A stretch of 64,000 nucleotides of DNA from Rheinheimera sp. 1928-s (GTDB lineage Bacteria; Pseudomonadota; Gammaproteobacteria; Enterobacterales; Alteromonadaceae): positions 436,641 to 500,640 of the forward strand of contig NZ_JARIXP010000003.1 in NCBI RefSeq assembly GCF_029269265.1, read 5' to 3'. Below the pieces are notes generated by a model that did no database searches, was not told the origin of the DNA, and saw nothing but the letters and a program-made list of their open reading frames with translations. The translations under genes and the position numbers were made by a program. Within the stretch, counting starts at the first letter, position 1. Every line of letters starts with the position of its first letter. Below, piece after piece: positions 30,364 to 48,170 of this stretch.

Positions 30364-30459
30364 AAAAACTCCTGTTATTCGGGCAGCTCACCACAACAAA
30401 GTGGATAAAACCAACACCCGGACTATGTAAAGAAACGTAATGAAAGGGCAATGGCCGCC

Positions 30460-30478: not shown

Positions 30479-30490
30479 AAAAGATCAATA

Positions 30491-30515
30491 GCAATTGCGA
30501 ACTATTTGCAATTGC
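30491..30515. repeat. Pair of GCAATTGC palindromes next to the Fur box
   Basis: Two identical 8-bp palindromes, GCAATTGC at 30491-30498 and 30508-30515, are spaced 17 bases centre to centre, downstream of the Fur box towards the PepSY gene. They could be a binding site for a second regulator. No known consensus comes to mind. Confidence 0.35.
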
Positions 30516-30637
30516 AGTTGTCGTGATAAGCCATGCAAGAGCATTTTTGCGACGAACAGCAAAATCAATCACTTGTAGATCGCTTGCAAACAAGAACAAT
30601 TCTCAGTAGCATGGCGGCAGTTTTTTATGGGGGTGTT

Positions 30638-31246: not shown

Positions 31247-31257
31247 GAGGGAAAATT

Positions 31258-31752: not shown

Positions 31753-31756
31753 TCCA

Positions 31757-32560: not shown

Positions 32561-32572
32561 GTCTGTGACTGG

Positions 32573-32597
32573 GCCTCTGTGTTTTTGGCACAGAGGC
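32573..32597 (+). terminator. Convergent terminator hairpin
   Basis: GCCTCTGTG and CACAGAGGC form a perfect 9-bp stem with a 7-base loop between the DUF4198 gene and the convergent LacI gene. T-rich runs are short, but it can serve both directions. Confidence 0.65.
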
Positions 32598-32612
32598 TGT
32601 TCTTCCTCACCG

Positions 32613-33608
32613 TTAGATCGGGATAGCTGAGTTACGCACCACCAGTTCTGGTTCAAAAACATTGGCTACTTCAACATCCTTTTTATACAGATTCTTCAGT
32701 AACCACAAAGCAGCCATTTTGCCCATTTCGTGGATAGGGTTGTTCACTGTGGTCAGTTTAGGTGAAACATAACGGGCAAAAGGAATATTATCGTAGCCGA
32801 CAAAAGACAACTCCTGCGGAATTTTCATACCCCGTTCCAGGCAGACTGAAATAGCGCCTGACACCATCTGGTCATTGGCGCAGACCACAGCAGTAAAAGT
32901 TTTGTTTTGACTAAACAGGTAGTTCATCCCATCCACGCCACTGTCTTCTTTGTAGTCACCTTCAAAACACAAAGCCGGATCGTAAGAAATACCCACTTCG
33001 GCCAAAGCTCTTTTATGACCTTCAAGCCGCTCTATTGCATCGTGTTTTTTTGATGGGCCTGAAATATAGGCAATCTCTCTGTGGCCTAAATCAAGCAGAT
33101 GCCGGGTCGCCATATAACCCCCTAGCTCATTGTTCAAATAAATACAGCAGTCACTGATTTCAGCAATGTATCTATTGATCAGCACTATAGGGGTAGAACT
33201 TTGGCTGAGTTTGATCAGGTAGTCATCGGAGATAGCTTCCACATCCAAAATCAGCGCGTCACAGCCTTTACTCAGCAAAAACTCTACGCTGTCTATTTCC
33301 TGAGCGGCGTCGCTGTGTCCTACAGCAATAATGACATGACGATTATCGGCTCGCAGTGCAGCTTCTATTTCCGCCATCATAGGACCGTAATAAGGACCAT
33401 CCAGCTGAGAAACCAAAACCCCAACACTATTCGAGCAATTTGACGCCAAAGACTGAGCAAAAGTGTTAGGCCTGTAGCCCAGTTCAGCCATAGCGGCCAG
33501 CACTTTTTGTTTGGTCTTTTCACTGACATTGGTGTTTTTATTCATCACTCTGGATACAGTCGCCAGAGATACACCTGCAAGCTGAGAAACGTCGTAAATA
33601 GTCGCCAT
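32613..33608 (-). CDS. LacI-family transcriptional regulator
   Basis: This 331-residue regulator has the LacI/GalR headpiece (TIYDVSQLAGVSLATVSRVMN, hinge helix near GYRPNTFAQSLA) and a periplasmic-binding-protein-like effector domain (SVGVLVSQLDGPYYGPMM, EIAYISGPSKKHDAIERLEGHKRAL, GYDNIPFARYVSPKLTTV). I chose ATG 33608, which gives the normal MATIYDV start; a GTG in frame at 33623 is less likely. It is the third gene of a GH1/GPH-transporter/LacI run on the minus strand. Sites of the form TGWAANCGNTTWCA in front of GH1 and between the TonB receptor and GH3 are probable operators. A beta-glucoside or glucose derivative is the likely inducer. Confidence 0.93.
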   Translation of the reverse strand: MATIYDVSQLAGVSLATVSRVMNKNTNVSEKTKQKVLAAMAELGYRPNTFAQSLASNCSNSVGVLVSQLDGPYYGPMMAEIEAALRADNRHVIIAVGHSDAAQEIDSVEFLLSKGCDALILDVEAISDDYLIKLSQSSTPIVLINRYIAEISDCCIYLNNELGGYMATRHLLDLGHREIAYISGPSKKHDAIERLEGHKRALAEVGISYDPALCFEGDYKEDSGVDGMNYLFSQNKTFTAVVCANDQMVSGAISVCLERGMKIPQELSFVGYDNIPFARYVSPKLTTVNNPIHEMGKMAALWLLKNLYKKDVEVANVFEPELVVRNSAIPI

Positions 33609-33660
33609 AAATAGTGCTGTCACTTCTGGTTAAGTCTAAGAAAGTCGGGAACTACAGAGT

Positions 33661-33692
33661 AATTCAGCAAAGACTGAATTGCTCTGCAGAGC
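33661..33692 (-). terminator. Adjacent hairpins after the GPH transporter gene
   Basis: AATTCAG/CTGAATT (33661-33680) and the palindrome GCTCTGCAGAGC (33681-33692) lie in tandem between the transporter and LacI genes. They may partly separate the two transcripts. No good T-tract is seen. Confidence 0.4.
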
Positions 33693-33708
33693 GCCATATT
33701 ATCAGCTT

Positions 33709-35040
33709 CTATTCTGCAGATCTCTTCAATTCCAGAGTGATTTCATCAACTTTTTGCGTATTGAGCTTATAAGCCCCCATGACAAAAGCTACAATCAACG
33801 ACCCTATAGCCGGATATAAACTGAATGCCAGCAACAAACCTGCTTTGGTTTCTTCGGTTTGAGCCACATCTGCCTGATAGCCCATACCTGCTAGCAACCA
33901 ACCGCCTAAAGCACCACCTATGGCTATGCCCATTTTGATAAAGAAGATAATAGAGGAATAGACCATGCCTGCACTACGAACCCCGGTACGCCATTGGCCA
34001 TAATCAACTGTGTCAGCCATTTTCGCCCAGAGCAGCGGTGTTCCAGTGTTGAATACCAAATTCCACAGTACATACAAACCTATGGCCAAAGTGACATTGT
34101 CTGCTGCAACAAAATAGCTACTGGCACAAAGGGCTGCGGCCAATATCTGTATGCCAATATAGAGCTTCACCTTGCAGTAGCGCTGGGCCAGAGGCTGCGC
34201 AATAATACAGCCCACCATACTGCCAAGCATACCCAAAGTGATAAACAAGGTGATGCTATCCGGCATTTCCAGATAGTACTTCACATAGTAAATAGCCAGC
34301 GTAGTACGCAGTACATAACCACTCAGCAGGCATAAAGCGACCAGCGCCAATACCCGCCACTGATCGTTTTTCCACAACTGACGGAAGTTGTCCATATAGC
34401 TGCGGCTAATGCTTTCTTTAGGTGGATTGATCCGCTCTTTGGTGCCATAAAAACAAGCTAGGAACATCAATACGCCCAGCACGCTCATCGCCATAATAGT
34501 CAGTTGATAACCTTTGGCTCTGTCGCCCTGACCAAAAAACTCAACCAAAGGCAAAGTTAAAGCGGTCACCATCAGACCACCGAGCATGGCAAAGACAAAA
34601 CGGTAAGACTGCACCGACACCCGCTCTTTTGGATCGGCAGTTAACACCGCCCCCAAAGCACAATACGGAATATTAATGGCGGTGTAGACCAGCATCAGCA
34701 AGGTGTAAGTGACAAAGGCATAGATCATTTTGCCTTCTTCGCCAAAATCCGGCGTAGTAAAGGCTAATACACTGATCAAACCAAAAGGTAAGGCAAACCA
34801 GAGCAAATAAGGCCGGAACTTGCCATATTTGCTTTGGGTGCGGTCAGCAAGAGCGCCCATCAGCGGGTCTGTTATCGCGTCTATGATACGCACAGCCAGA
34901 AACATGGTGCCAACAAAGGCCGGCGATATGCCATAAATGTCGGTATAAAAAAACGTCAGAAACAACATGACGGTTTGGAACACTATATTGCTTGCCGTAT
35001 CCCCGAGGCCGTAAGCAATTTTCTCCTTTACACTAACCAT
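33709..35040 (-). CDS. GPH-family sugar:cation symporter (MelB-like MFS)
   Basis: This 443-residue inner-membrane transporter belongs to the glycoside-pentoside-hexuronide (GPH) family. It starts with KEKIAYGLGDTASNIVFQ, the family N terminus, and has the conserved DAITDPLMGALADRTQSKYGKFRPYLLW block for cation and sugar binding. About 12 hydrophobic segments follow. It lies 51 bases after the GH1 gene. It should bring glucosides or oligosaccharides into the cytosol for the GH1 enzyme. The sugar is likely a beta-glucoside such as cellobiose or laminaribiose, judging by the neighbours. Confidence 0.92.
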   Translation of the reverse strand: MVSVKEKIAYGLGDTASNIVFQTVMLFLTFFYTDIYGISPAFVGTMFLAVRIIDAITDPLMGALADRTQSKYGKFRPYLLWFALPFGLISVLAFTTPDFGEEGKMIYAFVTYTLLMLVYTAINIPYCALGAVLTADPKERVSVQSYRFVFAMLGGLMVTALTLPLVEFFGQGDRAKGYQLTIMAMSVLGVLMFLACFYGTKERINPPKESISRSYMDNFRQLWKNDQWRVLALVALCLLSGYVLRTTLAIYYVKYYLEMPDSITLFITLGMLGSMVGCIIAQPLAQRYCKVKLYIGIQILAAALCASSYFVAADNVTLAIGLYVLWNLVFNTGTPLLWAKMADTVDYGQWRTGVRSAGMVYSSIIFFIKMGIAIGGALGGWLLAGMGYQADVAQTEETKAGLLLAFSLYPAIGSLIVAFVMGAYKLNTQKVDEITLELKRSAE

Positions 35041-35091
35041 GTCAGGCGCATCCTATAAATTGTTGATTTGAAATTATTATTTTTTTATTAG

Positions 35092-36420
35092 TTAACGATT
35101 ACTGATCAATCGTTTGTAAGCCAGACCGCTGTTTTTCACAGTTCTTTGCTGGCTGTCGTAGTCGACATAGACAATACCAAAACGCTTTAAGTAGCCTTCG
35201 GCCCACTCAAAGTTATCCATTAAACTCCAGGCAAAATAGCCCTGAATATCCACACCTTGCTCAACCGCCTGATGCACCGCATTTAAATGCAACTGATAAT
35301 AGGACAAGCGCAGTTGATCATCGACTTCAGCATTGTGCAGTTGATCGGCCGCAGCAGCACCATTTTCGGTAATGTAAACCGGCGGCAGTTTGTATTTCTG
35401 ATGCAAAGACACTAACAGATCGGTAAAGGCCTGTGGATAAATTTCCCAGCCAATATCTGTTTTAGGCGCATCGACCATGTCCACTTCGATAAAATCGCGG
35501 CCTTCTGTGGCTTTATACACAGTGCGGGTGTAGAAATTCACACCAAGGAAATCCAGTGGCGCTTTGATAATGTCAAAATCACCAGCTTCAATCACCGGCT
35601 TGTCTTCATCAGCCAGCAAGGCAAAAGAGTCAGGGTAGGCACCATCAAACACAGGTTTGATATACCACTGGTTAAAGTAGTCGTCGGCAAGCTGGGCCGC
35701 TCTTTTATCTGCCGCACTGTCGGTCAGTGGATAAGCTGGCGTGAAGTTCAGCACTAAACCATTCATGCTGTTGGGGCTATTTTTCTGCAGCACTTGCATG
35801 GCCAGACCGTGCGCCAACAGTAAATGATGCGCCGATTGTCGGCCATAGGCTTTTTTAGTCAGTCCAGGCGCATGAATACCAGCCTCATAACCTAAGTAAG
35901 AGCTGCAAAACGGTTCATTTAAAGTGGCATAAGAATAGACTCTGTCACCAAAAGCTTTGCTTAACTTGTCAGCATAATCCTGGAACAAATAGGCGGTGTT
36001 GCGGTTCAGCCAGCCGCCTTGATCTTCAATATGCTGAGGTAAATCCCAGTGATATAAGGTGACAAAAGACTTAATATTTTTTGCCTTGAGCTCATCCAGA
36101 ATATTGATATAGAAATCCACACCTTGTTGATTCAGGCTGCCGTCTTTATTCATTACCCTGGGCCAGGCGATAGAAAAACGATAAGCATCTACGCCCAGAG
36201 AGCTGATCAAGGCTATGTCGTCACGCCATAAGTTGTAGTGATCACAAGCCAAAGCGCCATTCGAGCCATCCTTCACTTTGCCCGGCGTGGCGCAAAACGT
36301 ATCCCAGATGCAAGGTAAGCGCTGTTCTATGCCACCTTCAATCTGAAAGGATGAGGTAGCGACCCCATAAGTAAATTGTTTTTTCAGCAATCTCGAGCCT
36401 TTCGGCAGTTCATAATTCAT
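35092..36420 (-). CDS. GH1 beta-glucosidase
   Basis: This 442-residue cytosolic enzyme is a family 1 glycoside hydrolase that cleaves beta-glucosides or beta-oligosaccharides. The acid/base Glu169 lies in ATLNEP and the nucleophile Glu352 in VYITENG, so it is catalytically complete. FTYGVATSSFQIEGG near the N terminus and GYFAWSLMDNFEWAEGYLKRFGIVYVDY near the C terminus are family marks. There is no signal peptide. It is the first gene of the GH1/GPH/LacI run, with a LacI-type operator 68 bases upstream of the start. It probably processes disaccharides imported by the neighbouring GPH transporter. Confidence 0.95.
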   Translation of the reverse strand: MNYELPKGSRLLKKQFTYGVATSSFQIEGGIEQRLPCIWDTFCATPGKVKDGSNGALACDHYNLWRDDIALISSLGVDAYRFSIAWPRVMNKDGSLNQQGVDFYINILDELKAKNIKSFVTLYHWDLPQHIEDQGGWLNRNTAYLFQDYADKLSKAFGDRVYSYATLNEPFCSSYLGYEAGIHAPGLTKKAYGRQSAHHLLLAHGLAMQVLQKNSPNSMNGLVLNFTPAYPLTDSAADKRAAQLADDYFNQWYIKPVFDGAYPDSFALLADEDKPVIEAGDFDIIKAPLDFLGVNFYTRTVYKATEGRDFIEVDMVDAPKTDIGWEIYPQAFTDLLVSLHQKYKLPPVYITENGAAAADQLHNAEVDDQLRLSYYQLHLNAVHQAVEQGVDIQGYFAWSLMDNFEWAEGYLKRFGIVYVDYDSQQRTVKNSGLAYKRLISNR

Positions 36421-36487
36421 CGTTATCTTCTTTTCATCTTTTTAAAATTAGAGGGTAAAAGTAGCTTGTTCAAAACTGGCCCAAACT

Positions 36488-36501
36488 TGTAATCGCTTTC
36501 A
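36488..36501. promoter_or_regulatory. LacI-type operator upstream of GH1
   Basis: TGTAATCGCTTTCA matches the LacI/GalR pattern TGWAANCGNTTWCA. Two further copies at 43826 and 43939 lie in the TonB/GH3 divergent promoter. It is well placed to repress the GH1-GPH-LacI operon. Confidence 0.7.
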
Positions 36502-36563
36502 TTTTTTGTGTTGTGCAGACCATACTCAAATCCTTGTTTGTTATTGTTCAGGGCTGTTTGGGC

Positions 36564-37277
36564 TTATACGAAATCAATAAACATATTGGCGGTTAAACGC
36601 CCAGTGACAGGCGAGCCATCTATGTCTGTTGTGTTGTCCACTAGTGAAGAATGCAACAAATTGCTGGGGTAAATAATCAGTCTGTTGGCCTGGTAAGGGA
36701 CTTGGTGGTACAGCTCATAATGCTCGTTGCTTTGCACCTGATAACGCTGGGGTGGAGCCCCCTGCTCGTCAATAAACTTTTGAGCAGACTGGAAATACTC
36801 TTGTCGTCTTTGATCGGTCACCCGTTCAAAACCTGTAGGTTTATGCCGGAAAAAGCCTGTGCTGCCATGAGGACTGTCATTGAGGTAATGCAAGAGTGCA
36901 AAATAATAAGGGGCACTGGTATCAAAATGTGGCATACATTGCAGCGGATGCAGGCTGTTTTCGGCCTGAGTGATCAGCGCATAAAACAGCATCTGTGGTT
37001 TTAATCGCAACTGTTCCGGCACCTGATAGACTTTATAAATCAACTGATACAACGCATTTAAACTGGCCGCTACATAGTCTTTTGGTAATACGGCGCGCTG
37101 TCCCGGGTAATAGGTTTGATTTTCCCGCATAAAATCGCTTTGCTGCGCATGCCGACGAATAGCAGACAAATCCACAGCAAAGTCATCAATCATGATCAAT
37201 GGCGTTTTTTCCTGCCCAAGATAAATAATTTCGGGCCGGATGCTGCTATTCACCTGATAATTCAGCGCGTCCATCAT
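36564..37277 (-). CDS. DUF6445 family protein (2OG-oxygenase-like)
   Basis: This protein of about 237 residues fits the DUF6445 family, which resembles Fe(II)/2-oxoglutarate oxygenases. It has a PLIMIDDFAVDL block, an iron-type HFD triad part (MPHFDTSAPYYF), a distal His in NLLHSSLV and a terminal GRLTANMFIDF with Arg in the 2OG-binding position. I chose ATG 37277, 7 bases past the halogenase stop with GAGCAGG upstream. An in-frame ATG at 37325 would overlap the halogenase gene by 41 bases. It is the last gene of the TonB/SapC/cupin/halogenase run. The substrate is unknown; a role in modifying a peptide, protein or small molecule in the same pathway is inference. Confidence 0.82.
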   Translation of the reverse strand: MMDALNYQVNSSIRPEIIYLGQEKTPLIMIDDFAVDLSAIRRHAQQSDFMRENQTYYPGQRAVLPKDYVAASLNALYQLIYKVYQVPEQLRLKPQMLFYALITQAENSLHPLQCMPHFDTSAPYYFALLHYLNDSPHGSTGFFRHKPTGFERVTDQRRQEYFQSAQKFIDEQGAPPQRYQVQSNEHYELYHQVPYQANRLIIYPSNLLHSSLVDNTTDIDGSPVTGRLTANMFIDFV

Positions 37278-37284
37278 CGCCTGC

Positions 37285-38778
37285 TCAGACCAAAGACGAC
37301 TTGCAGTAATGCTGAATAAACTCATGGTGAGTCGGGAACTGACTCACAGTGCGTTTCACATTGTGTTTAATGCTCATCAGGAAATCATTCAGCTCAGAAT
37401 CCGGCATTAAATCCACAATAGGATGATACTGCTGCGGCATTAAGCCCTGACCAATCAGCACCTGCAACCAGGAGCTTTCGCCAAATAATTCCTGTGCAAA
37501 CTTGTAAACTTTACCGGATTGTTTAAACAGCTCCATACGATGAGTCAAAGTGTCCGGGATTTGCATATCTTTGCAGTAACGCCAGAACTTGGTATCGGTG
37601 CGTTCGGTGGCTTTGTAATGCAGGATGATGAAATCGCGGATATTGTCCATTTCGATTTTGGTCTGGCGGTTAAACTCATCCACATCTGCAGAGGCTATGC
37701 CGTTTGACGGAAACATCTGCAGCAGACGAATAATACTGCGATGGATCAAATGAATACTGGTCGACTCCAGCGGTTCCAGAAAACCACTGGATAATCCAAT
37801 GGCCACACAGTTTTTATTCCAGTGCAGGCGACGGGTACCGGTTTTAAATTTAATCAGCCGTGGCTCAAACAGCATTTCACCTTCGACATTGTCGATCAAC
37901 CTTTGTTTGGCTTCAGCTTCTGTCATAAATTTGCTGCAGAACACCAGGCCATTGCCAACCCGGCTTTGCAACGGAATTTTCCATTGCCAGCCGGCATCAC
38001 GGGCTATAGCGCGGGTATAAGCCACCGGCTCCTGCGTGGTTTTAGTTTGCACTGCATAAGCGCTGTCGCAAGGTAACCAGTGACTCCAGTCTTCAAAGCC
38101 GGTATTCAGCGTTTGTTCTATTAATAAAGCGCGAAAACCCGTGCAATCAATAAATAAATCGCCTTCAATCAGCTCGCCGGACTCCAGCAATAAAGCACTG
38201 ATATTACCGTCCATATGCTGCTGCACTTCACGAATTTTGCCCTCAATACGTTTAATGCCATGCTGTTCTGACAAACGGCGCAAAAACTTAGCGTATAAAG
38301 ACGCATCCATATGATAAGCGTGGTTCAGATCCTGATTCGGCAGTACGGCAAAACGGCCCTGGCGGGCACCTAGATGCTCTACGCAATAATCACCAATTTC
38401 ACTGGCTATGCCTTTTTGTTTGCCTTTGACCCAGAAATGCTGAAAACCACAGGCCCAGCAGTCTTTGCCTAAAAAGCCAAAAGAGTGAATATAGTCTTCG
38501 CCCAGCGTTTTCCAGTTTTCAAACTGAATACCCAATTTAAAGGTGGCATTGGTGGCCGCCATCACTTCGGACTCTTTGATATTCAATAAACGGTGGAAAA
38601 TATGCATAGTGGGAATAGTAGCTTCACCCACACCTACAGTGCCAATGTCGTCCGACTCAACTAAGACTACTTCAAGGTTTTTGCCCAGTAATTTAGTCAG
38701 GCCTGCTGCAGTCATCCAGCCAGCTGTACCGCCACCTGCGATCACCACTTTTTTAATTCTGTGTTGTTCGTTATTCAT
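37285..38778 (-). CDS. Flavin-dependent tryptophan halogenase family protein
   Basis: This 497-residue protein is a flavin-dependent halogenase of the tryptophan/indole type. It shows the FAD fold VVIAGGGTAGWMTAAGL (about residues 11-27), the catalytic Lys81 in ATFKLGIQF, the hallmark WQWKIP at residues 265-270 and the FLEPLESTSIHLIHRSI region with the conserved Glu. These residues indicate a working halogenase rather than a monooxygenase. In Alteromonadales- and Caulobacterales-type genomes such genes often lie beside TonB receptors, SapC and cupin genes, with no secondary-metabolite cluster. That is the case here. The substrate is unknown. A conserved element ACAAACTATAACTA lies 29 bases before the start. 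Confidence 0.92.
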   Translation of the reverse strand: MNNEQHRIKKVVIAGGGTAGWMTAAGLTKLLGKNLEVVLVESDDIGTVGVGEATIPTMHIFHRLLNIKESEVMAATNATFKLGIQFENWKTLGEDYIHSFGFLGKDCWACGFQHFWVKGKQKGIASEIGDYCVEHLGARQGRFAVLPNQDLNHAYHMDASLYAKFLRRLSEQHGIKRIEGKIREVQQHMDGNISALLLESGELIEGDLFIDCTGFRALLIEQTLNTGFEDWSHWLPCDSAYAVQTKTTQEPVAYTRAIARDAGWQWKIPLQSRVGNGLVFCSKFMTEAEAKQRLIDNVEGEMLFEPRLIKFKTGTRRLHWNKNCVAIGLSSGFLEPLESTSIHLIHRSIIRLLQMFPSNGIASADVDEFNRQTKIEMDNIRDFIILHYKATERTDTKFWRYCKDMQIPDTLTHRMELFKQSGKVYKFAQELFGESSWLQVLIGQGLMPQQYHPIVDLMPDSELNDFLMSIKHNVKRTVSQFPTHHEFIQHYCKSSLV

Positions 38779-38806
38779 CTGTTCACCCTGTTGATTGGTG
38801 CTTTTA

Positions 38807-38820
38807 TAGTTATAGTTTGT
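38807..38820 (-). promoter_or_regulatory. Repeated promoter-like element upstream of the halogenase gene
   Basis: On the minus strand this is ACAAACTATAACTA, identical to the copy at 40613-40626 before the SapC gene, and at nearly the same distance from the start codon (29 and 30 bases). TATAAC could be a -10 box. Confidence 0.45.
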
Positions 38821-38822
38821 AC

Positions 38823-39851
38823 TCAGCGTTTTAATTTATTCAGTAAATCAGCTCTGATCTGACGCGCGTTCAGCTCATCCAGCGGCTTAGTTAACATTTT
38901 TAAAGCCTCTGGCTGAATATGCTGCTGGGATACATCATCATGTTCAAAAATGTAGTAATCAAAAATGGCCTTCCAGGCCTGACGCTGCGCTTTAGGTAAG
39001 CTGCGCAAACTCAACACCGCCATAGACAAGGCATTATTCGGCCGGCCTAAATAAGCTGGGGTGTCGCGCCACCAATGGCTGATCAGTACATTAAAAGCAT
39101 CTTTTGCTTCGACGTGGTGCCACCACATACTGGGAATAAATAACAGATCGCCAGGTTCAAGATGGGCTACCTGTGCATGCTGTAAAGCTTCAGCAAACTT
39201 AGGAAAACGCTCAAAGTCAGGCGCTGCAAAATCCACCATACTGACATCCTGGCCGCCAGGCGCAAATTCCATAGGGCCTGGATACAAATTGGCAATTTGT
39301 TCCGGCGGGAACAAGGTAAAAGTACGGTGTCCGACAGCGTTGCAGGCCAGATTCTGCGGAAAGTCATAATGAGCGGCTATTCTGGATTGATTGCCTAACC
39401 AGACACTGGTTAACGGGTTCACGCCCTCCAAAGCCAGACTGTTTTGTGCTGCTAAACCCGGAAACCAATGGTTGATTTCAGTAGAGCCCATGTAATATGT
39501 AGGTACTTCTTTTTGGCCATTCAGTGCAAATAAACGCTCAATCAGCTGATTAAAATCAATTTTTCCGCCCTGATAATTAAAGCCATTTTGCTCTGCGTTA
39601 TAAAATACCCGGCCTTGCTGATCGGGCTCGATATAACAGGCGCTGACAGGATTCCCCTGATAAAACTGTCGAATATAATCGGCGGCTGCAGAGGCTGAAA
39701 CCAAACCAGCCTGAACTAAAGGCCAGTCTTTACACAAGCCTTTAAACACCAGCGGTTGGTTGGCGTTTGTGATCAATGCCCATGCATCCGCTAAGTCGCA
39801 TCCTTCCAGCGTTTTTACTTCTGCTAATGGCTTAGTGGTCAGCGTATTCAT
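38823..39851 (-). CDS. Cupin-like/JmjC-type Fe(II)/2OG oxygenase
   Basis: This 342-residue protein belongs to the cupin_8/JmjC-like group that includes FIH-type asparaginyl hydroxylases. It shows the facial-triad pieces HYD in RIAAHYDFPQNL, GHRTFTLFPPEQIANLYPGP, LEPGDLLFIPSMWWHHVEA with the distal His, and SHWWRD. Its likely action is hydroxylation of a protein or peptide side chain or a small molecule. It lies between SapC and the halogenase gene in the receptor operon and ends at TGA 38823 only 44 bases before the halogenase start. The target is unknown. A TonB receptor or transported ligand is conceivable. Confidence 0.9.
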   Translation of the reverse strand: MNTLTTKPLAEVKTLEGCDLADAWALITNANQPLVFKGLCKDWPLVQAGLVSASAAADYIRQFYQGNPVSACYIEPDQQGRVFYNAEQNGFNYQGGKIDFNQLIERLFALNGQKEVPTYYMGSTEINHWFPGLAAQNSLALEGVNPLTSVWLGNQSRIAAHYDFPQNLACNAVGHRTFTLFPPEQIANLYPGPMEFAPGGQDVSMVDFAAPDFERFPKFAEALQHAQVAHLEPGDLLFIPSMWWHHVEAKDAFNVLISHWWRDTPAYLGRPNNALSMAVLSLRSLPKAQRQAWKAIFDYYIFEHDDVSQQHIQPEALKMLTKPLDELNARQIRADLLNKLKR

Positions 39852-39857
39852 CAGGCG

Positions 39858-40583
39858 TTACTCAAACTGCTTATTTTTTAACTGCAGCAAATGCCGGATA
39901 TTAGCCTGAGAAGCTATGGCCATATAAATCGCCTGCAGATAACCTTTTTGATGCAAGAGCGCCAACAGCTCTGGCGATAAAGTGGCAAGGTTTTCTTCGT
40001 GAATAGTATAAAAACCTGCCAGCTGCTGTTTTTGGCCATTGCTGAACGTCAGATCCAAAGTAAAAGATTCCAGCAATTGATGTTCAAGCAACAGGTCAAT
40101 AAAAGCCTTGCTGTCGAGCATGCCGAAATGAATGGTTTCCAGCATGCTGGCGACTTGATCCAGATAAGGGCTGTTGCCACCAAAAGGTAAAAATAAGCTT
40201 TCGCCTTCAGTACTGCTGACCCGCGGATTGTCTAAATCTATATGAATAACACGCTGTGCGGTTTCAATACCGTCTTCACGCACCAACTGCTGACCAATTA
40301 AAAACGGCTGACGTCTGAGCATCAGCGGCACATAGCAACCACGCCAGTTATCCTGCTGTAAAAACAGGTTTTCCTGATCCTGAAAACCAAAAAGAGTCAC
40401 GGCAAAAAACTGATTGCTGTGATTGTCTTTGTGGAAAAAAATCGGGTAATGGGTCTGAACGGTACGAAATTCTTGAGGAAAAGTGATGGCAAACCAGACT
40501 GCATCACCGTATTCAGCGCCTCTGGCCGTAATCACCTTCAGGTCTCGGTGTTCAACACTGTTCAGTAAAACATTGTGACTCAT
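39858..40583 (-). CDS. SapC family protein
   Basis: This 241-residue protein fits the SapC family, first named after S-layer-associated genes of Campylobacter but widespread in proteobacteria beside TonB receptors. The conserved N-terminal part contains HRDLKVITARGAEYGDA, then EFRTVQTHYPIFF and an AVTLFGFQDQENLF segment. The last 60 residues contain LEHQLLESFTLDLTF and GFYTIHEENLATLSPE. No signal peptide or membrane segment is visible, so cytosolic. It is the first gene after the TonB receptor, 180 bases downstream, separated by hairpins and preceded by the promoter-like element at 40613. The molecular function is not known. Confidence 0.92.
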   Translation of the reverse strand: MSHNVLLNSVEHRDLKVITARGAEYGDAVWFAITFPQEFRTVQTHYPIFFHKDNHSNQFFAVTLFGFQDQENLFLQQDNWRGCYVPLMLRRQPFLIGQQLVREDGIETAQRVIHIDLDNPRVSSTEGESLFLPFGGNSPYLDQVASMLETIHFGMLDSKAFIDLLLEHQLLESFTLDLTFSNGQKQQLAGFYTIHEENLATLSPELLALLHQKGYLQAIYMAIASQANIRHLLQLKNKQFE

Positions 40584-40612
40584 ACTGTATCCCGGTCTGT
40601 TATTTATATTTT

Positions 40613-40626
40613 TAGTTATAGTTTGT
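40613..40626 (-). promoter_or_regulatory. Repeated promoter-like element upstream of SapC
   Basis: ACAAACTATAACTA on the minus strand is the second copy of the element before the halogenase gene. A further ACAAACT lies just upstream. Together with the hairpins at 40698-40754 it suggests separate transcription of SapC and the genes after it. Confidence 0.45.
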
Positions 40627-40697
40627 CTGAAGTTTGTGAGCGGCCATCAAGGCTGCTGTTTATTACTTCTTTATAGGGCAGAATTCATCAAGATATA

Positions 40698-40754
40698 GCA
40701 TCTTCAATCCGGATTGAAGATGCCAGTAGAGATTGGGCCATATCCTTATGGCCC
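40698..40754 (-). terminator. Hairpin pair after the glucan-locus TonB receptor
   Basis: Read on the minus strand, an 8-bp GGGCCATA stem with a 4-base loop (40735-40754) comes first. Next comes a perfect 26-bp palindrome whose half is GCATCTTCAATCC (40698-40723). The first hairpin is followed by AATCTCT. The pair could end most receptor transcripts or protect their 3' ends. Confidence 0.6.
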
Positions 40755-40763
40755 TGGTCCAGC

Positions 40764-43730
40764 TTAGAAGCTGTAGCGAGCACCGATACTGTAACGAGCA
40801 CCGGACTCAATCAGGCTTAACACTTGCTCTTTGGCGCGGCCGTGAACACGGATATGCTCATCAGTCACGTTCAAAGCTTCAACATAAACTGTTAAACCTT
40901 CCACTTGTGGTAAGTCATAACTGACTGACATATCAATTTGGTGATAAGCCTCAGTATAACGTGGGTGAGCTCCTGTATCCTGACCTCTGGAGTTCAGGAA
41001 CTGATCACGCCAGTTATAGGCGATACGAGCCTGGAAACCATCCATTTCATAAAACAAAATGGCGTTGGCTGTGTCACTTAAACCAATTACAGCAGCCTGG
41101 TCCTGCAACAGGAAGTTGTTATAGCTTGTTTCACTATCCACCATAGTGTAGTTCGCTATAGCACCAAAACCTGTTTCACCAAAAGCATGCTGAATAGCGA
41201 ATTCCCAGCCATCGATCACTTCTGAATCAGTACCATTGGAAGGTGTATTGATATCAAATATCAAATCTTCATCTTCACCAGCAACACCATCAATAGTTCC
41301 AGCCGCTACATTCACGCCCGGAGCATTTGGATAGTTGGCAAAAATCCAGTCACGAATAGCACTGGCATCATTGCCAACTGCAGCTACTGCTTCATCGTAC
41401 TTCTTACCATCTACCGGGTTAGGAATGTTGTAGATAGTCGATTTAACAATAGAGTTGCTGATAAAGTTACTGGTGTCTTTACGGAAATAACCAATAGAGG
41501 CGTAGCTAGATGGTGAATAGTACCATTCAGCCGACAAGTCGATATTTTTGGATTCCAAAGGCAACAGACTTGGGTTACCAGCATTACCACCACCACCAGC
41601 ACGGTTGGCTATAGTAGCCACTACGGTACCGCCCTGAATGGCGACATAGTCCGGACGACCAATAGTTTCACTGTAGGCGGCACGTAACATCACGTCATCC
41701 ACTACTTCAATATTGAAGTTTAAGTTAGGCAAGATGTAATCGTAATCGCCACTTTTCGTTTGAAACTCACGTTGACCACTGGCTTGTAATACAATTTCAG
41801 TGTCCGCTACCCAACGAGCACCATTGTAGGCAGCGACGGCAGAAGTGGAAGTAACGTCTGTTTGTTCATAACGTACACCGACATGAACATCGTACGGCAT
41901 GCCAGAAATTTCATTTTCATAGTTGTACTGCACATAAGCAGAACGCGATTCTTCCTTCGTGTAACGGTTTACGTCGCTGTCATAGTCAGTGGAAGGGCAG
42001 AAGTTGGTGCCACAATCACCGGCGCCAACAAAACCAGCTGGGGTATAGAGCTGTTCAGCACGGGCACGTACTGTATTGAAATCCCAGAAGAAAATAGTAT
42101 CCAGAACTTCAAAATCGCGATCCGGCATTAAGGAGAAATCACCTTTGCCAGCGTTAAATTTGTCATGGATAGTACCAGCCGGGAAATACGAATCGTCAAA
42201 ATCGCCAGCTTGACCTACACCACCCCAGTCATTCCGTTGCACGTTGACTGATTTTGAATGGTTATCAACGTCTGTGATAGCAATACCAAAATCTATGCTG
42301 CCCGCGTTTTCAAATATATATTCGCCATCAAACTGGTACTGATCAATTTCAGACTTATTGGTCGCGTTACCAAATACGCTACCTGTTACTATCATGTCGG
42401 AAGGACGAACAGCATTACCACCTTCAACAGCCAGCAAAGGCAGTTCGCCGGTAAAGTCTGTCGCAGCACTCTGGCGAACAAAGGCGGCGGTACTTAAGGT
42501 GTTGTTTGAGCCTAAAGCATGGTTAGGTTTGAATTCAGCATCAGATTGGTGAGCATCAAAACTCAGTTTTAAATTCTCCGTGGCTTGCCATTCCAGATTC
42601 AAACCCAAAGAACCACTTTGGTTACGCACACCATAATCACCGGCCCCCATAGACAAATCGGCAAAGCTATTACCATAGTCTTCTGAATAAATCAGCGGTG
42701 AAGATACAGGGCCATCAGTCCAGACACTTTGTGACGGCACATAGGTATACCAGGCGGACACGTCATTGTATTGAGTGTCGATATCGTTGCGCATGTAGGT
42801 ATAGTCTAAGGATGCGGTCAGATTATCAGTAGGAGCATATTGCAGCACTAACTGGCCGTTGGTGCGGGCACGTTGCTGCTCTTCAAATTTGTAAATGGTG
42901 GTTTGTGGCACAGAATACACATCATTGGCACCAGGACGATTCACCTGATTATCATTTGGGATACTACCCCACTGACCAGAAGTGATATCGACAGAACCAG
43001 GGAAGCTGCGCCAACCTGTGCCTACGTTGGCTTGTTGACTACCACTTTCACGCTCCTGATAACTGGCAGAAACCAAGACACCAAATTTGTCATCGTTAAA
43101 AGTTGTAGAGTACAAACCTGCTAATTCCGGAGTAGCACCGCCTTCTTCGGTTGATCTGTCATCCACCATGGCCGCACTAAATACAGCTTTTTCGCCGCCA
43201 GCACTTAAAGGTTTTAAGGTTTGAACATCAATAACTGAGCCGATACCACCTGTTGGGTTTGAAGCAAAACTGGTTTTGTTTACTTCAACACCGCTGATGG
43301 TGTCAGCAGAAATATTAGCGAAATCAAAAGAACGCGAACCTGTAGTCACAGGCATTTGACGGCCGTTCAGCGTCACTAAGTTAAAGTCCGGACCAAAACC
43401 ACGGACCGATACTTTACTGCCTTCACCGTTGACACGGTCAATAGAAACACCGCTGATACGCTGCAGAGATTCTGCCAGGTTGGTATCAGGGAATTTACCT
43501 ATATCTTCAGCCGAAATTGCATCCACAATACCTGTAGAAGATCGTTTGGTATCCATGGATTTAATCAGACTACCGCGAATGCCGGTCACGCTGATCACTT
43601 CAATTTTTTCTTCAGCTTTAGCGTTTTGCTCTTGTGCGGCATCCGCAAAAGCAGGCATAGCAACGCCTACTCCAAGCACTAATGACAGACTGGTGGCGAG
43701 TCTGGTCTTTTTGAACGTTTTGGATTTCAT
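40764..43730 (-). CDS. TonB-dependent receptor, carbohydrate type
   Basis: This 988-residue receptor has a signal peptide (MKSKTFKKTRLATSLSLVLGVGVAMPAFA). A TonB-box-like IEVISVTGIRGSLIKS follows, then a plug with IGKFPDTNLAESLQRISGVSIDRVNGEGSKVSVRGFGPDFNLVTLNGRQMP. The barrel is large and ends in GARYSF. The plug is that of the big xanthomonad- and Alteromonadales-type receptors used for oligosaccharides. It is divergent from the GH3 exo-glucosidase gene, with two LacI-type operators between, and is followed by SapC and the modification genes. The ligand is probably a beta-glucan oligomer. AGGGAAC precedes the start. Confidence 0.94.
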   Translation of the reverse strand: MKSKTFKKTRLATSLSLVLGVGVAMPAFADAAQEQNAKAEEKIEVISVTGIRGSLIKSMDTKRSSTGIVDAISAEDIGKFPDTNLAESLQRISGVSIDRVNGEGSKVSVRGFGPDFNLVTLNGRQMPVTTGSRSFDFANISADTISGVEVNKTSFASNPTGGIGSVIDVQTLKPLSAGGEKAVFSAAMVDDRSTEEGGATPELAGLYSTTFNDDKFGVLVSASYQERESGSQQANVGTGWRSFPGSVDITSGQWGSIPNDNQVNRPGANDVYSVPQTTIYKFEEQQRARTNGQLVLQYAPTDNLTASLDYTYMRNDIDTQYNDVSAWYTYVPSQSVWTDGPVSSPLIYSEDYGNSFADLSMGAGDYGVRNQSGSLGLNLEWQATENLKLSFDAHQSDAEFKPNHALGSNNTLSTAAFVRQSAATDFTGELPLLAVEGGNAVRPSDMIVTGSVFGNATNKSEIDQYQFDGEYIFENAGSIDFGIAITDVDNHSKSVNVQRNDWGGVGQAGDFDDSYFPAGTIHDKFNAGKGDFSLMPDRDFEVLDTIFFWDFNTVRARAEQLYTPAGFVGAGDCGTNFCPSTDYDSDVNRYTKEESRSAYVQYNYENEISGMPYDVHVGVRYEQTDVTSTSAVAAYNGARWVADTEIVLQASGQREFQTKSGDYDYILPNLNFNIEVVDDVMLRAAYSETIGRPDYVAIQGGTVVATIANRAGGGGNAGNPSLLPLESKNIDLSAEWYYSPSSYASIGYFRKDTSNFISNSIVKSTIYNIPNPVDGKKYDEAVAAVGNDASAIRDWIFANYPNAPGVNVAAGTIDGVAGEDEDLIFDINTPSNGTDSEVIDGWEFAIQHAFGETGFGAIANYTMVDSETSYNNFLLQDQAAVIGLSDTANAILFYEMDGFQARIAYNWRDQFLNSRGQDTGAHPRYTEAYHQIDMSVSYDLPQVEGLTVYVEALNVTDEHIRVHGRAKEQVLSLIESGARYSIGARYSF

Positions 43731-43825
43731 CTTAGTTCCCTGTCGACTGTTTTTTTGGCTTTTTACTTTTATAAGAAAATTATTGTGACGCCGGACAGAT
43801 AGCTTAACTACTCCCCAAAACTAAC

Positions 43826-43839
43826 TGTAAGCGCTTTCA
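43826..43839. promoter_or_regulatory. LacI-type operator, receptor-proximal
   Basis: TGTAAGCGCTTTCA has the central palindrome AGCGCT typical of LacI/GalR sites. It lies 96 bases before the receptor start codon. Confidence 0.75.
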
Positions 43840-43938
43840 CAAACTTAGGTGATTTTTTTTAACTCGTCAATACTGAAAAACTAATTCTTACACTTTGGTT
43901 AAAAAACAGTTGGCAATACTGACTTTATCAGTTAAAAA

Positions 43939-43952
43939 TGAAACCGCTTACA
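43939..43952. promoter_or_regulatory. LacI-type operator, GH3-proximal
   Basis: TGAAACCGCTTACA is the reverse-style copy of the same pattern. The two sites are 113 bases apart centre to centre, close to eleven helical turns, which would allow DNA looping. Confidence 0.7.
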
Positions 43953-44251
43953 ATTGCATTCTAACCAAGCATATCAAGGTGTTGTGTTTTCCTTTGCTGA
44001 AAAAATGTGATGTAAATTTAAAACAATAATAAGCAAATCAAAGATTTGCATACCGGAGCTTTTAATAAGCCCGGAGGACACGGGGACAGAACACCAAGCA
44101 CCCATCAGGGTTTTTGTATGCTTTTGCTTAAACAAAAATGCTGATTTGCCTGCCAGCCCCGCCGATAAAAACTCTGTTGATACTTTGTTAAGGTCTGACT
44201 TTCCAACCAAAGCGGACACAAAGGCAAACAGAGCTCAACAGGATAATGATT

Positions 44252-46798
44252 ATGTCTCGACACACCCCATTGGCGTTGTTGTGCAGTGCTGCACTTTTCA
44301 CTACTTTGTCCGGTTGCGGTCAACAAAAGGCCACCACTGAAACAGCAACAGAAGTTAAAACAACAACTGCCGAAAGCCTTGCACTGTGGCCTGAATTAAA
44401 AAGCCCTTTAGCGAACACTGATACAGAACAAAAAGTACAGCAACTGCTGAGCACTTTAACTATTGAGCAAAAAGTAGCTCAGTTGATCCAGCCGGATATC
44501 CGCTGGATGACAGTGGAAGACATGCGCCAGTATGGTTTTGGTTCTTATTTAAATGGTGGTGGTGCTTATCCGAAGGACAATAAAAAATCCACAGCAGCAG
44601 ATTGGGTGGCCTTAGCTCAGGCTTATTACGATGCAGGCGTGGACTCAAGTAAAGATGGCAGCTCTATTCCACCTATCTGGGGCACAGATGCTGTGCATGG
44701 TCACAACAATGTGTTTGGCGCTACCGTCTTTCCGCACAATATAGGTTTAGGTGCCGCCAACAACACAGAATTAGTGGAAGCTATAGGCAAAGCCACAGCA
44801 GTGGAAGTGGCTGCCACTGGTATCAACTGGATATTTGCCCCAACAGTTGCTGTAGCCAGAGATGACCGCTGGGGCCGCAGTTATGAAAGTTATTCGGAAG
44901 ACCCGACTATTGTAAAAGAGTTAGGCGCAGCATTGGTCAAAGGTATTCAGGGCAATGTTGGATCTGACTTTATGCACAGCGGCCGCTTAATAGCCACAGC
45001 TAAACATTATCTGGGTGATGGCGGCACTGAAAATGGCAAAGATCAGGGCGACAACCTGAACACTGAAGCCGATTTAGTCCGCTTACATGCTCAGGGTTAT
45101 ATCAGCAGCCTGAATGCAGGTGTTCAAACCGTGATGGCCACCTTTAACAGCTGGCATGGCGAGAAAATACATGGCAGTCACTACCTGTTAACCAGCGTGC
45201 TGAAAGAACGTATGGGGTTTGATGGTTTAGTGGTAGGAGACTGGAACGGTCACGGCCAAATTCCGGGCTGCACCAATAATAACTGTGCCGCGGCAGTCAA
45301 TGCAGGTGTGGATATTTTAATGGCGCCGGAAGACTGGAAGCTGCTGTATCAAAATACCCTGGCTCAGGCCAAAGCAGGTGAAATATCAGCAGCTCGTTTG
45401 GATGACGCCGTCAGCCGCATTTTAAGAGTGAAAATCCGTGCGGGTTTATTTGAGCGTGGCAATCCGGCGCAGTCGGAGCTGGCAGGTAAATCAGAACTGA
45501 TAGGCCATGCTGATCATCAGGCTATTGCAGCCCAGGCCGTGCGTGAGTCTTTAGTGCTGTTGAAAAACAACAATCAGCTACTGCCACTGGCGCCAAAACA
45601 AAAAGTGCTGGTGACAGGCGATGGTGCTGACAATATTGGTAAACAAAGTGGTGGCTGGACTTTAACCTGGCAGGGTACAGGCAATACCAATGCCGATTTC
45701 CCGAATGGGCGCTCCATTTATTCAGGCATACAGCAACAGGTTGAAGCAGCTCAGGGCTCTGTCGAATTGAGCGTCGATGGCAGTTATCAGCAAAAGCCTG
45801 ACGTTGCTATTGTAGTGATAGGTGAAAACCCATATGCCGAATTTGACGGTGATATCCGCACTCTGGATTATCAGGCTGGCAAAAACACTGATCTGGAATT
45901 ACTGAAAAAACTCAAAGCGGACGGCATTCCTGTAGTCACTGTATTTTTAACAGGCCGGCCTTTATGGGTGAATCCTGAATTAAATCAGTCCGATGCTTTT
46001 GTTGCGGCCTGGTTACCTGGTACCGCAGGTCAGGCGGTGGCTGACGTTTTATTTAAAACTCAAACTGGTGAAGTTCAGTATGATTTTAAAGGCAAACTGC
46101 CATTCTCCTGGCCTAAAACAGCGGGTCAATCCCCGTTAAATCAAGGGGATAGCAACTACGATCCGCTTTTCTCCTTTGGTTATGGCCTGACCTATCAGGA
46201 CAACACCACTATCGCCAATGATTTATCCGAACAAATCAACAGTGCAACCGGCTCCAGCAACGAAAGCTTAAGTTTATTTGAGCGCCGCCCGGCTTCAGGT
46301 TACAGCCTGTTGCTGCAGGATGAACAAGGTCTGGTCACAGTCACAGGCAACAAAGCCAAGAGTGCCGACCAAAGCCTGAGCTTAGCTGCAGTGAACTGGC
46401 AAAAGCAGGAAGATGCCTTATTGCTCGACTGGGCTGCGAATTCCAAAGCTAAGTTGGTGCTGCAAGCTGCAGTGCCACTGGATGCCAGTGCTTATGGTCA
46501 ATTGGTGGTGGATATGAAATGGAGTTCATCGCCAACAGCTGCCGTTACATTAGCTCAATCCTGTGGTTCGGGCTGTGGTGGCACTTTGGATTTGGCTGAA
46601 CTGATCAACGGCAAAGCCGCAGGCCAGTGGCACAAAGTAGTGATTGATTTAAGCTGTTTTGCTGCCAAAGGCGCAGCACTGAATCATCTGCAGCAGCCTT
46701 TTGTATTACACAGCGAAGCAGCTTATCAGTTAAGTATTTCCAATATCCGACTGACCCCTGCCACAGCAACGGCCGATTTAAGTTGCCCGGCAGCTTAA
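44252..46798 (+). CDS. GH3 exo-beta-glucosidase lipoprotein (exo-1,3/1,4-beta-glucanase-like)
   Basis: This 848-residue glycoside hydrolase of family 3 has a lipoprotein signal (SAALFTTLSGCGQQ, acylated Cys22), so it is membrane-anchored in the periplasm or at the surface. Catalytic-domain blocks are IPPIWGTDAVHGHNNVFGATVFPHNIGLGA, KHYLGDGGT, and the nucleophile Asp330 in LVVGDWNGHG. The second GH3 domain (about residues 430-630) has ESLVLLKNNNQLLPL and FSFGYGLTY. A C-terminal galactose-binding-like domain (about 690-840) matches ExoP-type beta-glucanases. I chose ATG 44252 because AGGA lies 8 bases upstream; ATG 44246 is in frame. It should release glucose from beta-glucan oligomers, which the adjacent FHS transporter then takes up. 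Confidence 0.93.
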   Translation: MSRHTPLALLCSAALFTTLSGCGQQKATTETATEVKTTTAESLALWPELKSPLANTDTEQKVQQLLSTLTIEQKVAQLIQPDIRWMTVEDMRQYGFGSYLNGGGAYPKDNKKSTAADWVALAQAYYDAGVDSSKDGSSIPPIWGTDAVHGHNNVFGATVFPHNIGLGAANNTELVEAIGKATAVEVAATGINWIFAPTVAVARDDRWGRSYESYSEDPTIVKELGAALVKGIQGNVGSDFMHSGRLIATAKHYLGDGGTENGKDQGDNLNTEADLVRLHAQGYISSLNAGVQTVMATFNSWHGEKIHGSHYLLTSVLKERMGFDGLVVGDWNGHGQIPGCTNNNCAAAVNAGVDILMAPEDWKLLYQNTLAQAKAGEISAARLDDAVSRILRVKIRAGLFERGNPAQSELAGKSELIGHADHQAIAAQAVRESLVLLKNNNQLLPLAPKQKVLVTGDGADNIGKQSGGWTLTWQGTGNTNADFPNGRSIYSGIQQQVEAAQGSVELSVDGSYQQKPDVAIVVIGENPYAEFDGDIRTLDYQAGKNTDLELLKKLKADGIPVVTVFLTGRPLWVNPELNQSDAFVAAWLPGTAGQAVADVLFKTQTGEVQYDFKGKLPFSWPKTAGQSPLNQGDSNYDPLFSFGYGLTYQDNTTIANDLSEQINSATGSSNESLSLFERRPASGYSLLLQDEQGLVTVTGNKAKSADQSLSLAAVNWQKQEDALLLDWAANSKAKLVLQAAVPLDASAYGQLVVDMKWSSSPTAAVTLAQSCGSGCGGTLDLAELINGKAAGQWHKVVIDLSCFAAKGAALNHLQQPFVLHSEAAYQLSISNIRLTPATATADLSCPAA

Positions 46799-46862
46799 TA
46801 GTTTTTTAACCACAACCTGATAACAAGAAAGGCCGTCAAGCTGCGGCCTGATGAGGAATAGA

Positions 46863-48083
46863 ATGCAAACTGTTCAAAACGCCGAAGCGCAGGGTTCCGG
46901 CACACCAGTCAGTAGCTGGGCTTTACCTGCTCTTACTTTTTTGTTTTTTATCTGGGGTTTTATTACTTGTCTGAATGACATTTTAATTCCGCATTTAAAA
47001 GCCGTCTTCGATCTGACTTACACTCAGGCCATGTTGATCCAATTCTGCTTTTTTGGCGCTTATTTTGTGGTGTCTTTACCTGCAGGAGCCTTGATTAATA
47101 AGCTGGGTTACCAGAAAGGTATAGTCATAGGTTTAGCTATTGCTGGCTTTGGCACACTGAACTTTATTCCGGCAGCAAGCTTTCACAGTTATGCCTGGTT
47201 TTTAGCTGCTTTATTTGTGCTGGCATCCGGCATAACCATTTTACAGGTAGCAGCCAACCCTTATGTCACAGTGCTGGGTAATCCAAAAACCGCCTCCAGC
47301 CGCCTGACCATGACACAAGCCTTTAACTCTTTAGGTACTACGGTAGCGCCTCTGATTGGTGCAGCCTTGATCCTGAGCCAGCTCGACAGCACTGAAGGTG
47401 CTGATGCAGTACAACTACCTTATCTGGTGCTGACCATAGCCTTATTTGCCGTGGCTTTTGTATTTGCGCGCTTAAAATTACCTGAAGTTCAAAACACCAC
47501 AGCAGCAGAAAAAATCTCCATTAAAGCCCTGCTGCCATACAACCATTTATGGCTCGGTGCTTTAGGCATATTTATGTATGTTGGCGCTGAAGTGGCTATA
47601 GGTTCAGTGATGGTCAACTTTATTGCTTTACCTGAAATCACAGGGCTGGCGGAAGCTGAAGCAGCTCACTATGTCGCCTGGTATTGGGGTGGAGCTATGG
47701 TGGGCCGTTTTATCGGTGCTTTATTGATGCAGCGTATTAACGCAGGTTTATTACTGGCTATTCACGCTGCGGCCGCTATTGTGTTGCTGGTAATGGTGAT
47801 TACAGGTCAGGGTCAACTGGCCTTACTGGCACTGCTGGCCATAGGTATCGCCAACTCTATTATGTTCCCGACTATCTTCAGTCTGGCGTTACATGGTTTA
47901 GGAAAATATACCAGTCAGGGTGCTGGCTTATTGTGTCTGGCGATAGTCGGCGGGGCTTTAGTGCCGGTAGCTCAGGGCATGTTAGCCGACTCATTTGGTC
48001 TGGCTTTGTCTTTTATCTTGCCGGTATTTTGTTACATCTATATTTGCTACTTCGGTTTACGCAGTCGCAAAGTAACCAGTTAA
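46863..48083 (+). CDS. FHS-family glucose/galactose MFS transporter
   Basis: This 406-residue protein is a 12-helix major-facilitator sugar transporter of the fucose-galactose-glucose:H+ symporter family. It begins with [47 protein letters not shown], the strongly conserved N terminus, and has the [18 protein letters not shown] block. I chose ATG 46863 with AGGAA 5 bases upstream; the in-frame ATG at 46851 would place the ribosome site inside the gene. It is 64 bases after the GH3 gene, with a small AGGCCG/CGGCCT hairpin (46830-46849) just before the ribosome site. It probably imports glucose released by GH3. Confidence 0.94.
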
Positions 48084-48142
48084 GGCGCAAGCCGGGGCAA
48101 GGCAGTTGTTTTCCCGGTTTGGCCTTGCCTACTTTATGCCTC

Positions 48143-48170
48143 AGGCTGAGTTAAACCTCAGCCTTTTTTT
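48143..48170 (+). terminator. Strong terminator overlapping the 3' end of the convergent RND gene
   Basis: AGGCTGAG and CTCAGCCT form a perfect 8-bp stem with a 6-base loop followed by seven T residues. The right half lies within the last codons of the RND gene at 48151. It terminates the FHS transporter transcript. Confidence 0.88.

Follow-up and report, generated by a model that had tools for sequence, protein, structure and literature searches.

A TonB receptor-headed cassette of halogenase, oxygenases and SapC in Rheinheimera sp. 1928-s as a candidate receptor-maturation system

A five-gene cassette in the genome of Rheinheimera sp. 1928-s joins a TonB-dependent receptor to a SapC family protein, a predicted JmjC-type 2-oxoglutarate (2OG)-Fe(II) oxygenase, a predicted flavin-dependent halogenase and a DUF6445 protein. 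The most economical reading, which we hold tentatively and with somewhat less than even confidence, is that this is a receptor-maturation cassette, in which the enzymes would modify side chains of the receptor. The window, that is, the whole stretch of DNA analysed, comprises 64,000 nucleotides (assembly GCF_029269265.1, contig NZ_JARIXP010000003.1, positions 436,641 to 500,640, forward strand). The five genes are co-directional and run on the minus strand from 43730 to 36564. An earlier sequence-only reading of this DNA had described five genes in one direction, and indeed the five open reading frames (ORFs) lie at that place on one strand, with families matched by profile:

40764..43730, minus strand: TonB-dependent receptor, first gene of the unit, 988 residues (TIGR01782, 655 bits)
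40696..40725, minus strand: hairpin with a 13-pair stem, between the receptor stop and SapC
39858..40583, minus strand: SapC family protein, 241 residues (PF07277, 234 bits)
38823..39851, minus strand: predicted JmjC/Cupin_8 2OG-Fe(II) oxygenase, 342 residues (PF13621, 230 bits; nearest solved protein FIH)
37285..38778, minus strand: predicted class A flavin-dependent halogenase, 497 residues (PF04820, 636 bits)
36564..37325, minus strand: DUF6445 protein, probable 2OG-Fe(II) oxygenase, 253 residues (PF20043, 232 bits)

The DUF6445 and halogenase ORFs overlap by 41 base pairs. Receptor maturation is favoured because halogenases of this kind are linked to receptors, because the glycan changes around the halogenase and receptor, because the JmjC protein is related to protein hydroxylases, because the halogenase is paired with different 2OG oxygenases, and because the solved halogenases have an open active site. 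Comparison across genomes points to the receptor, or to something bound to it, as the probable target.

The linkage is evident in the Rheinheimera genome itself, which contains 7 PF04820 matches and 19 receptors over the curated TIGR01782 cut-off of 310 bits, the window receptor among them. Four of the 19 head a halogenase unit: the window receptor and those of loci L039, L038 and L040. L039 repeats the window order of SapC, JmjC, halogenase and DUF6445, the L038 receptor is followed by three halogenase-like genes and then DUF6445, and L040 consists of receptor and halogenase only. A fifth unit, L041, is headed by a receptor outside the 19. The other 15 receptors, including the one among them closest to the window receptor (L047), have no halogenase after them, and the L045 receptor has SapC alone.

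Elsewhere in the order, halogenase matches at E ≤ 1e-80 are found in 36 of 148 sampled genomes and fall into two score classes (best 10 or fewer candidates scored per genome). Twelve genomes, picked for having halogenases, were surveyed further (best 36 or fewer per genome; 5 partial rows of 114 left out). In these, 56 of 66 halogenases at the same threshold have a same-strand TIGR01782 receptor upstream within 12 kilobases (kb), and a halogenase lies no more than 6 kb downstream of 38 of the 109 TIGR01782 receptors. The receptor–halogenase linkage exceeds chance, and where both share one gene string the receptor is usually first. When the Rheinheimera genome is added to the 12, a hand count places all 11 members of the main cassette clade as linked and all 10 of its sister clade as unlinked, a single contrast in the tree. 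At least 80 of the named loci were collected by halogenase match and are thus linked by selection.

The window halogenase is predicted to belong to the Xcc4156/BrvH type of PF04820 halogenases and to have halogenating activity. By alignment it contains the glycine motif for flavin adenine dinucleotide (G15-G17), the catalytic Lys81, the WxWxIP motif (W264-Q-W266-K-I268-P269) and the EPLEST motif (E335-P-L-E-S-T-S341); the complete catalytic residues reported earlier, Lys81 and WQWKIP, are thus present along with two further motifs. The closest solved structures are 6y1w (658 bits), 9luq (580 bits) and 6frl (484 bits), the first of which we take to be Xcc4156 and the last BrvH. The match to these two enzymes is full-length, with the Lys, WxWxIP and EP(L/I)EST motifs aligned. 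Weak profile matches were obtained to QhpG (35 bits) and LodB (21 bits), which act in the maturation of proteins with Trp-derived cofactors; the curated cut-offs are far higher, at 240 and 400 bits, so the window halogenase is not a member of either family.

BrvH and Xcc4156 were expressed and crystallised without a known natural substrate. According to excerpts of the two reports, both have an open active site, prefer bromide and leave free Trp unhalogenated, and their authors proposed peptide or larger substrates (PMC5945002, PMC7336383). The BrvH excerpts add that free indole is brominated in vitro at low turnover, and that the authors question whether indole is what the enzyme acts on in nature. 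This work concerned single enzymes rather than a cassette, and the word TonB is absent from both papers. A Trp halogenase that works on a peptide is MibH, which the BrvH authors call a structural analogue in the passages available. MibH differs, however, in being 26% identical to Xcc4156 without clustering with it, and in acting on the lantibiotic NAI-107.

Two classes of halogenase were distinguished: class A contains WxWxIP and EST, while class B lacks the P after WxWxI (mostly WxWDIG) and contains EAS or EAT. The 207 aligned halogenases comprise 120 of class A, 77 of class B, 6 intermediates and 4 without the Lys or a motif Trp. At L038:11444-12877 and L183:4430-5800, halogenase-like proteins without the catalytic Lys are encoded between two intact class A genes, behind a receptor; these are possibly non-catalytic partners. 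Phage-borne cassettes were considered and set aside, as the phage halogenases among the records listed are mostly distant: 13 of the 15 records listed of 60 share 29–34% identity, and the other two, both unannotated and faecal, share 44 and 50%. The viral contigs L292 and L293 contain halogenase matches at 45–50% identity.

Among the 72 receptors of the main clade, the most frequent unit, with 28 cases, consists of receptor, class B, SapC, JmjC and class A; 6 more receptors have the same unit with a terminal DUF6445, and 9 have the window order, without class B and with DUF6445. The other linked receptors are mostly followed by class A alone, by class A with an intermediate type, or by class B with SapC, and JmjC is rare among them.

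Which halogenase is nearest depends on the receptor group and not on the genome. With units of the receptor group “other” dropped from the Rheinheimera and 12 survey genomes, the nearest class A halogenase belongs to the same receptor group in 21 of 21 cases (shuffled mean 10.1, maximum 19) and to the same genome in none of them. For class B the corresponding counts are 23 of 23 (shuffled mean 7.4, maximum 18) and 2 of 23. Across 55 main-clade units with SapC, JmjC and class A, the distances of receptor and class A show the strongest correlation among six pairs, at 0.85, with the other five giving 0.64–0.76.

The glycan, as judged from gene neighbours, varies around the halogenase and receptor. 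Main-clade neighbours (from loci L056–L135, at most 2 per locus, 79 scanned of 118 picks) are predicted to be mainly beta-glucan genes; among the 25 families listed of 64 are glycoside hydrolase (GH) families GH3 (11), GH16 (5) and GH1 (4), and CBM56 (2). Neighbours of the other linked receptors (68 scanned of 70 picks) include, among the 25 families listed of 62, GH13 (9), GH20 (5), melibiase (3), GH42 (2), GH31 (2), agarase-type domains (2) and GH77 (1). Plasmid records contain a sucrose-type locus (GH32, amylosucrase) with a putative 2OG-Fe(II) oxygenase and a halogenase behind the receptor, an alpha-N-acetylglucosaminidase/GH95 locus with a halogenase, a receptor-SapC-cupin-halogenase unit, and a GH3 locus in which receptor and halogenase both occur. 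The two halogenase classes therefore stand behind receptors of predicted beta-glucan, alpha-glucan, chitin, alpha- and beta-galactoside, agar-type, sucrose-type and alpha-N-acetylglucosaminidase/GH95 loci. This glycan independence holds for the halogenase and receptor, not for the JmjC part or the full SapC-JmjC-halogenase set, which is almost limited to a single receptor clade with mainly beta-glucan neighbours.

The JmjC protein, already recognized as a JmjC-like 2OG oxygenase in the sequence-only reading, is predicted to be FIH-like and to hydroxylate protein. Its iron ligands H161, D163 and H245 are each found in 74 of 74 relatives. R176 is likewise invariant (74 of 74), and the aligned FIH residue is Lys, in both cases the basic residue of the 2OG-binding place. 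The best solved match is human FIH, followed by JMJD5; both are protein hydroxylases, FIH being asparaginyl. The alignment extends over residues 152–266 of the window protein and covers the iron ligands and the WWHH region; apart from the Arg in place of Lys, the window protein differs from FIH in being receptor-linked.

DUF6445 is probably also a 2OG-Fe(II) oxygenase. H133, D135, H225 and R243 (HxD...H...R) are invariant in 25 of 25 members, and 3 of the 25 have weak matches to the Pfam family 2OG-FeII_Oxy_3 (best E 0.008), while no convincing PDB match was found by sequence or profile. The proposal of a second 2OG-oxygenase-like protein thus gains from the conserved motif but lacks a solved relative by sequence, and is likely rather than proven. 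At L103:9989-12214 a class A halogenase is fused to DUF6445 in one open frame. Three probable 2OG oxygenase families accompany the halogenase and receptor, the third being represented at two loci, by a TPR/2OG-FeII_Oxy_5 protein in L041 of the Rheinheimera genome and by a protein annotated “putative 2OG-Fe(II) oxygenase” in one of Catenovulum. In L041:7863-13463 the receptor precedes the TPR/2OG-FeII_Oxy_5 oxygenase and the halogenase; in L373:4834-10512 (Catenovulum) receptor, oxygenase and halogenase lie between GH32 and amylosucrase genes. No obvious signal peptide was seen by eye in the cassette enzymes.

The AlphaFold2 (AF2) model of the window SapC, with a predicted local distance difference test score (pLDDT) of 97.3, indicates a well-folded protein, and Foldseek detected no solved relative in the PDB at E ≤ 0.001. 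A same-strand halogenase lies within 3 kb of 27 of 37 SapC genes and 8 of 13 DUF6445 genes in the 13 genomes. SapC genes without a nearby halogenase occur at L282–L288, and the neighbours at L282 and L284 look MraZ-like by their first letters. At L279:7715-12595 a class B halogenase, SapC and DUF6445 are followed by genes resembling, by eye, an ECF sigma factor and a FecR-like regulator, with no receptor match in the stretch examined.

A receptor-maturation pathway could operate as follows. A LacI-type regulator encoded nearby would induce the receptor, the cassette and the beta-glucan genes jointly, as the operator-like sites described below suggest. The receptor, carrying a signal peptide, would be synthesized in the cytoplasm, and SapC could act as an adaptor or chaperone holding the receptor chain while the cytoplasmic halogenase and the FIH-like and DUF6445 oxygenases modify unfolded side chains before or during export. 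Bromination would be preferred, by analogy to BrvH and Xcc4156. We infer that the receptor is the substrate; the likeliest site would be its extracellular glycan-binding face, where carbohydrate-stacking aromatic residues reside, and the benefit might be tuning of ligand binding or protection of loops. A broader proposal, held a little less firmly still, is that of a widespread proteobacterial system in which operon-encoded enzymes halogenate and hydroxylate outer-membrane nutrient receptors, with the modules class A, class B, SapC, JmjC, DUF6445 and TPR-2OG combined in different ways, so that the surface that binds ligand or is exposed would be altered. Should the receptor prove to be the substrate, a large class of orphan halogenases would acquire one, SapC and DUF6445 would acquire a role, and a new layer of outer-membrane receptor maturation would be added in carbohydrate-degrading bacteria.

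Several observations weigh against receptor maturation, the first of which concern the modified residue. Were a single receptor Trp modified, linked receptors would be expected to share it more often than unlinked ones. Column enrichment compared 100 linked with 89 unlinked receptors from 198 distinct sequences (6 dropped for a low or off-family score, 3 with SapC or JmjC only placed in neither group). Closer comparisons set 72 main-clade receptors against 10 sisters, 11 against 6 in a class-A-only clade, and 9 against 8 in a class-B/SapC group. The receptors of L063, L192 and L198 were counted as unlinked, yet a halogenase lies shortly downstream in the same locus. No residue, Trp included, distinguishes halogenase-linked receptors in all groups. 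Every receptor of the main linked clade has W502 and W907, as does every one of the 10 unlinked sisters, and W502 is missing from the class-B/SapC-linked group. W240 and W327 reach 0.80–1.00 in four linked groups but 0.63 and 0.48 in unlinked receptors, and both are fixed in the unlinked sister clade. Receptor Trp was consequently rejected as a linkage marker, as none separates linked from unlinked receptors in close comparison. A different type of residue may be modified, or a Trp that ligand binding would conserve in either case.

Eleven residues, two of them Trp, are present at 0.75 or above in each of four linked groups and below 0.75 in unlinked receptors. P345, F525, G503 and F825 occur in 86–93% of the main clade and in none of the 10 unlinked sisters. 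In the AF2 model of the window receptor (pLDDT 88.3) these four map to extracellular loops or their edges, with strands counted by hand, and they may reflect glycan specificity; of the 19 residues with a difference above 0.4 from the sisters, several are in the plug rather than the loops.

The remaining difficulties concern linkage. Ten of the 66 survey halogenases have no upstream TIGR01782 receptor; three of these (L275, L200, L203) have another receptor or receptor unit nearby, and those of L276, L277, L278 and L279 have no receptor in the stretch examined. No halogenase lies within 3 kb of 10 of the 37 SapC and 5 of the 13 DUF6445 genes, and 7 of those 10 SapC genes, when inspected, showed none across ~8.5–13 kb; SapC may also function apart from the cassette. 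JmjC occurs almost exclusively in the beta-glucan-type receptor clade and could serve that ligand. Stable operon inheritance explains the co-inheritance as well as a functional bond does. The hairpin behind the receptor is also not specific: structures below -15 kcal/mol follow 100 of 103 linked and 80 of 92 unlinked receptors (36 and 23 when shuffled). As it is common after unlinked receptors too, it was discarded as a sign of differential receptor and enzyme expression.

Side-chain modification of a peptide, the receptor or an imported ligand was the range of targets suggested earlier. The modification stays plausible, but the imported ligand becomes less likely, because the same two halogenase classes follow receptors for several glycans. 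The best-surviving alternative, unlikely in our estimation, is that the cassette modifies not the receptor but another ribosomal peptide or a secreted partner protein, akin to the tag of a ribosomally synthesized and post-translationally modified peptide, encoded elsewhere. The absence of a marked receptor residue would fit such a target, as would the parallel that the BrvH authors draw with MibH, a peptide chlorinase, and the same idea voiced for Xcc4156, both in passages of those reports. Halogenases nevertheless follow the receptor group, and the gap behind the receptor gives no sign of a conserved small ORF: in that gap, the one inspected, ATG-initiated ORFs of at least 20 residues lie wholly inside 14 of 101 cases, and the 12 listed of the 15 such ORFs look unrelated by eye.

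A slightly less probable alternative is that the enzymes act on an aromatic group of the imported glycan, or on a phenolic or indolic compound taken up with it. Uptake and hydrolysis genes are co-located here, operator-like sites are present, and the near-limitation of JmjC to one receptor clade would suit a ligand-specific function. Beta-glucan and sucrose, however, have no aromatic ring, and the glycan varies between halogenase-linked receptor groups. The bromination of free indole by BrvH, which might be taken as support, is offset by its low turnover and its authors' doubts, as far as the excerpted text goes.

Less probable again is the production of a halogenated indole-type signal or antimicrobial that the receptor imports or senses. 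The halogenase does resemble the tryptophan halogenases of secondary metabolism, but genomes contain several halogenases behind different receptors, and no biosynthetic genes accompany it. On this last point the sequence-only reading was borne out: no nonribosomal peptide synthetase, polyketide synthase or similar scaffold domain was found beside the halogenase among 30 scanned of the 49 window ORFs of at least 150 residues. Receptor decoration mainly for defence, with altered loops blocking phages or bacteriocins, for which TonB receptors are entry points, agrees with the modelled position of the four cassette-clade residues in or at the edge of surface loops but is very unlikely given the distant phage halogenases (13 of 15 records listed).

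The association of these genes had been described as known in several proteobacteria. NCBI product names bear this out, but no account of a receptor–halogenase association was found in the open-licence papers of PubMed Central (PMC), a scope outside which subscription journals fall. The word “halogenase” has 0 occurrences in both PMC1790865 (Xanthomonas carbohydrate uptake) and PMC2996990 (Shewanella), “TonB” has 0 in PMC8269204, and the halogenase passages of PMC11337851 do not describe the cassette.

The cassette sits within a predicted beta-glucan locus, as the unit reaches past DUF6445 into same-strand GH1, symporter and regulator genes and is flanked by divergent GH3 and sugar permease genes:

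35092..36420, minus strand: GH1 beta-glucosidase (TIGR03356)
33709..35040, minus strand: GPH-family sugar symporter (TIGR00792)
32613..33623, minus strand: LacI-family regulator (PF00356 and Peripla_BP domains)
44246..46798, plus strand: divergent GH3 glycoside hydrolase with an Exop_C domain (family profile match)
46851..48083, plus strand: divergent glucose/galactose-type MFS permease (TIGR01272)
43939..43952, no strand assigned: LacI-type operator-like site upstream of the receptor (found by eye)
43826..43839, no strand assigned: LacI-type operator-like site upstream of the receptor (found by eye)
36488..36501, no strand assigned: LacI-type operator-like site upstream of GH1 (sole further window match of the operator pattern)

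The operator pattern was written from the two palindromes upstream of the receptor, and the third site, before GH1, is the one independent match. A similar arrangement is found in the Bgl pathway of Shewanella (OmpBgl, BglT, BglA, BglR), which in the available parts of its description shares with the window a TonB receptor, a GPH symporter, beta-glucosidases and a LacI-type regulator whose sites precede both units; the main text of that paper contains neither the word halogenase nor SapC (PMC2996990). Rfam gave no match within window positions 30000–50000. Further out, the window contains an adjacent pair of AcrB-type RND pump genes with one membrane-fusion gene (48151-54326 and 54327-55523), and a second TonB receptor of another subfamily (27937-30363) next to an SMP-30/gluconolactonase-type gene, with a histidine kinase gene close by.

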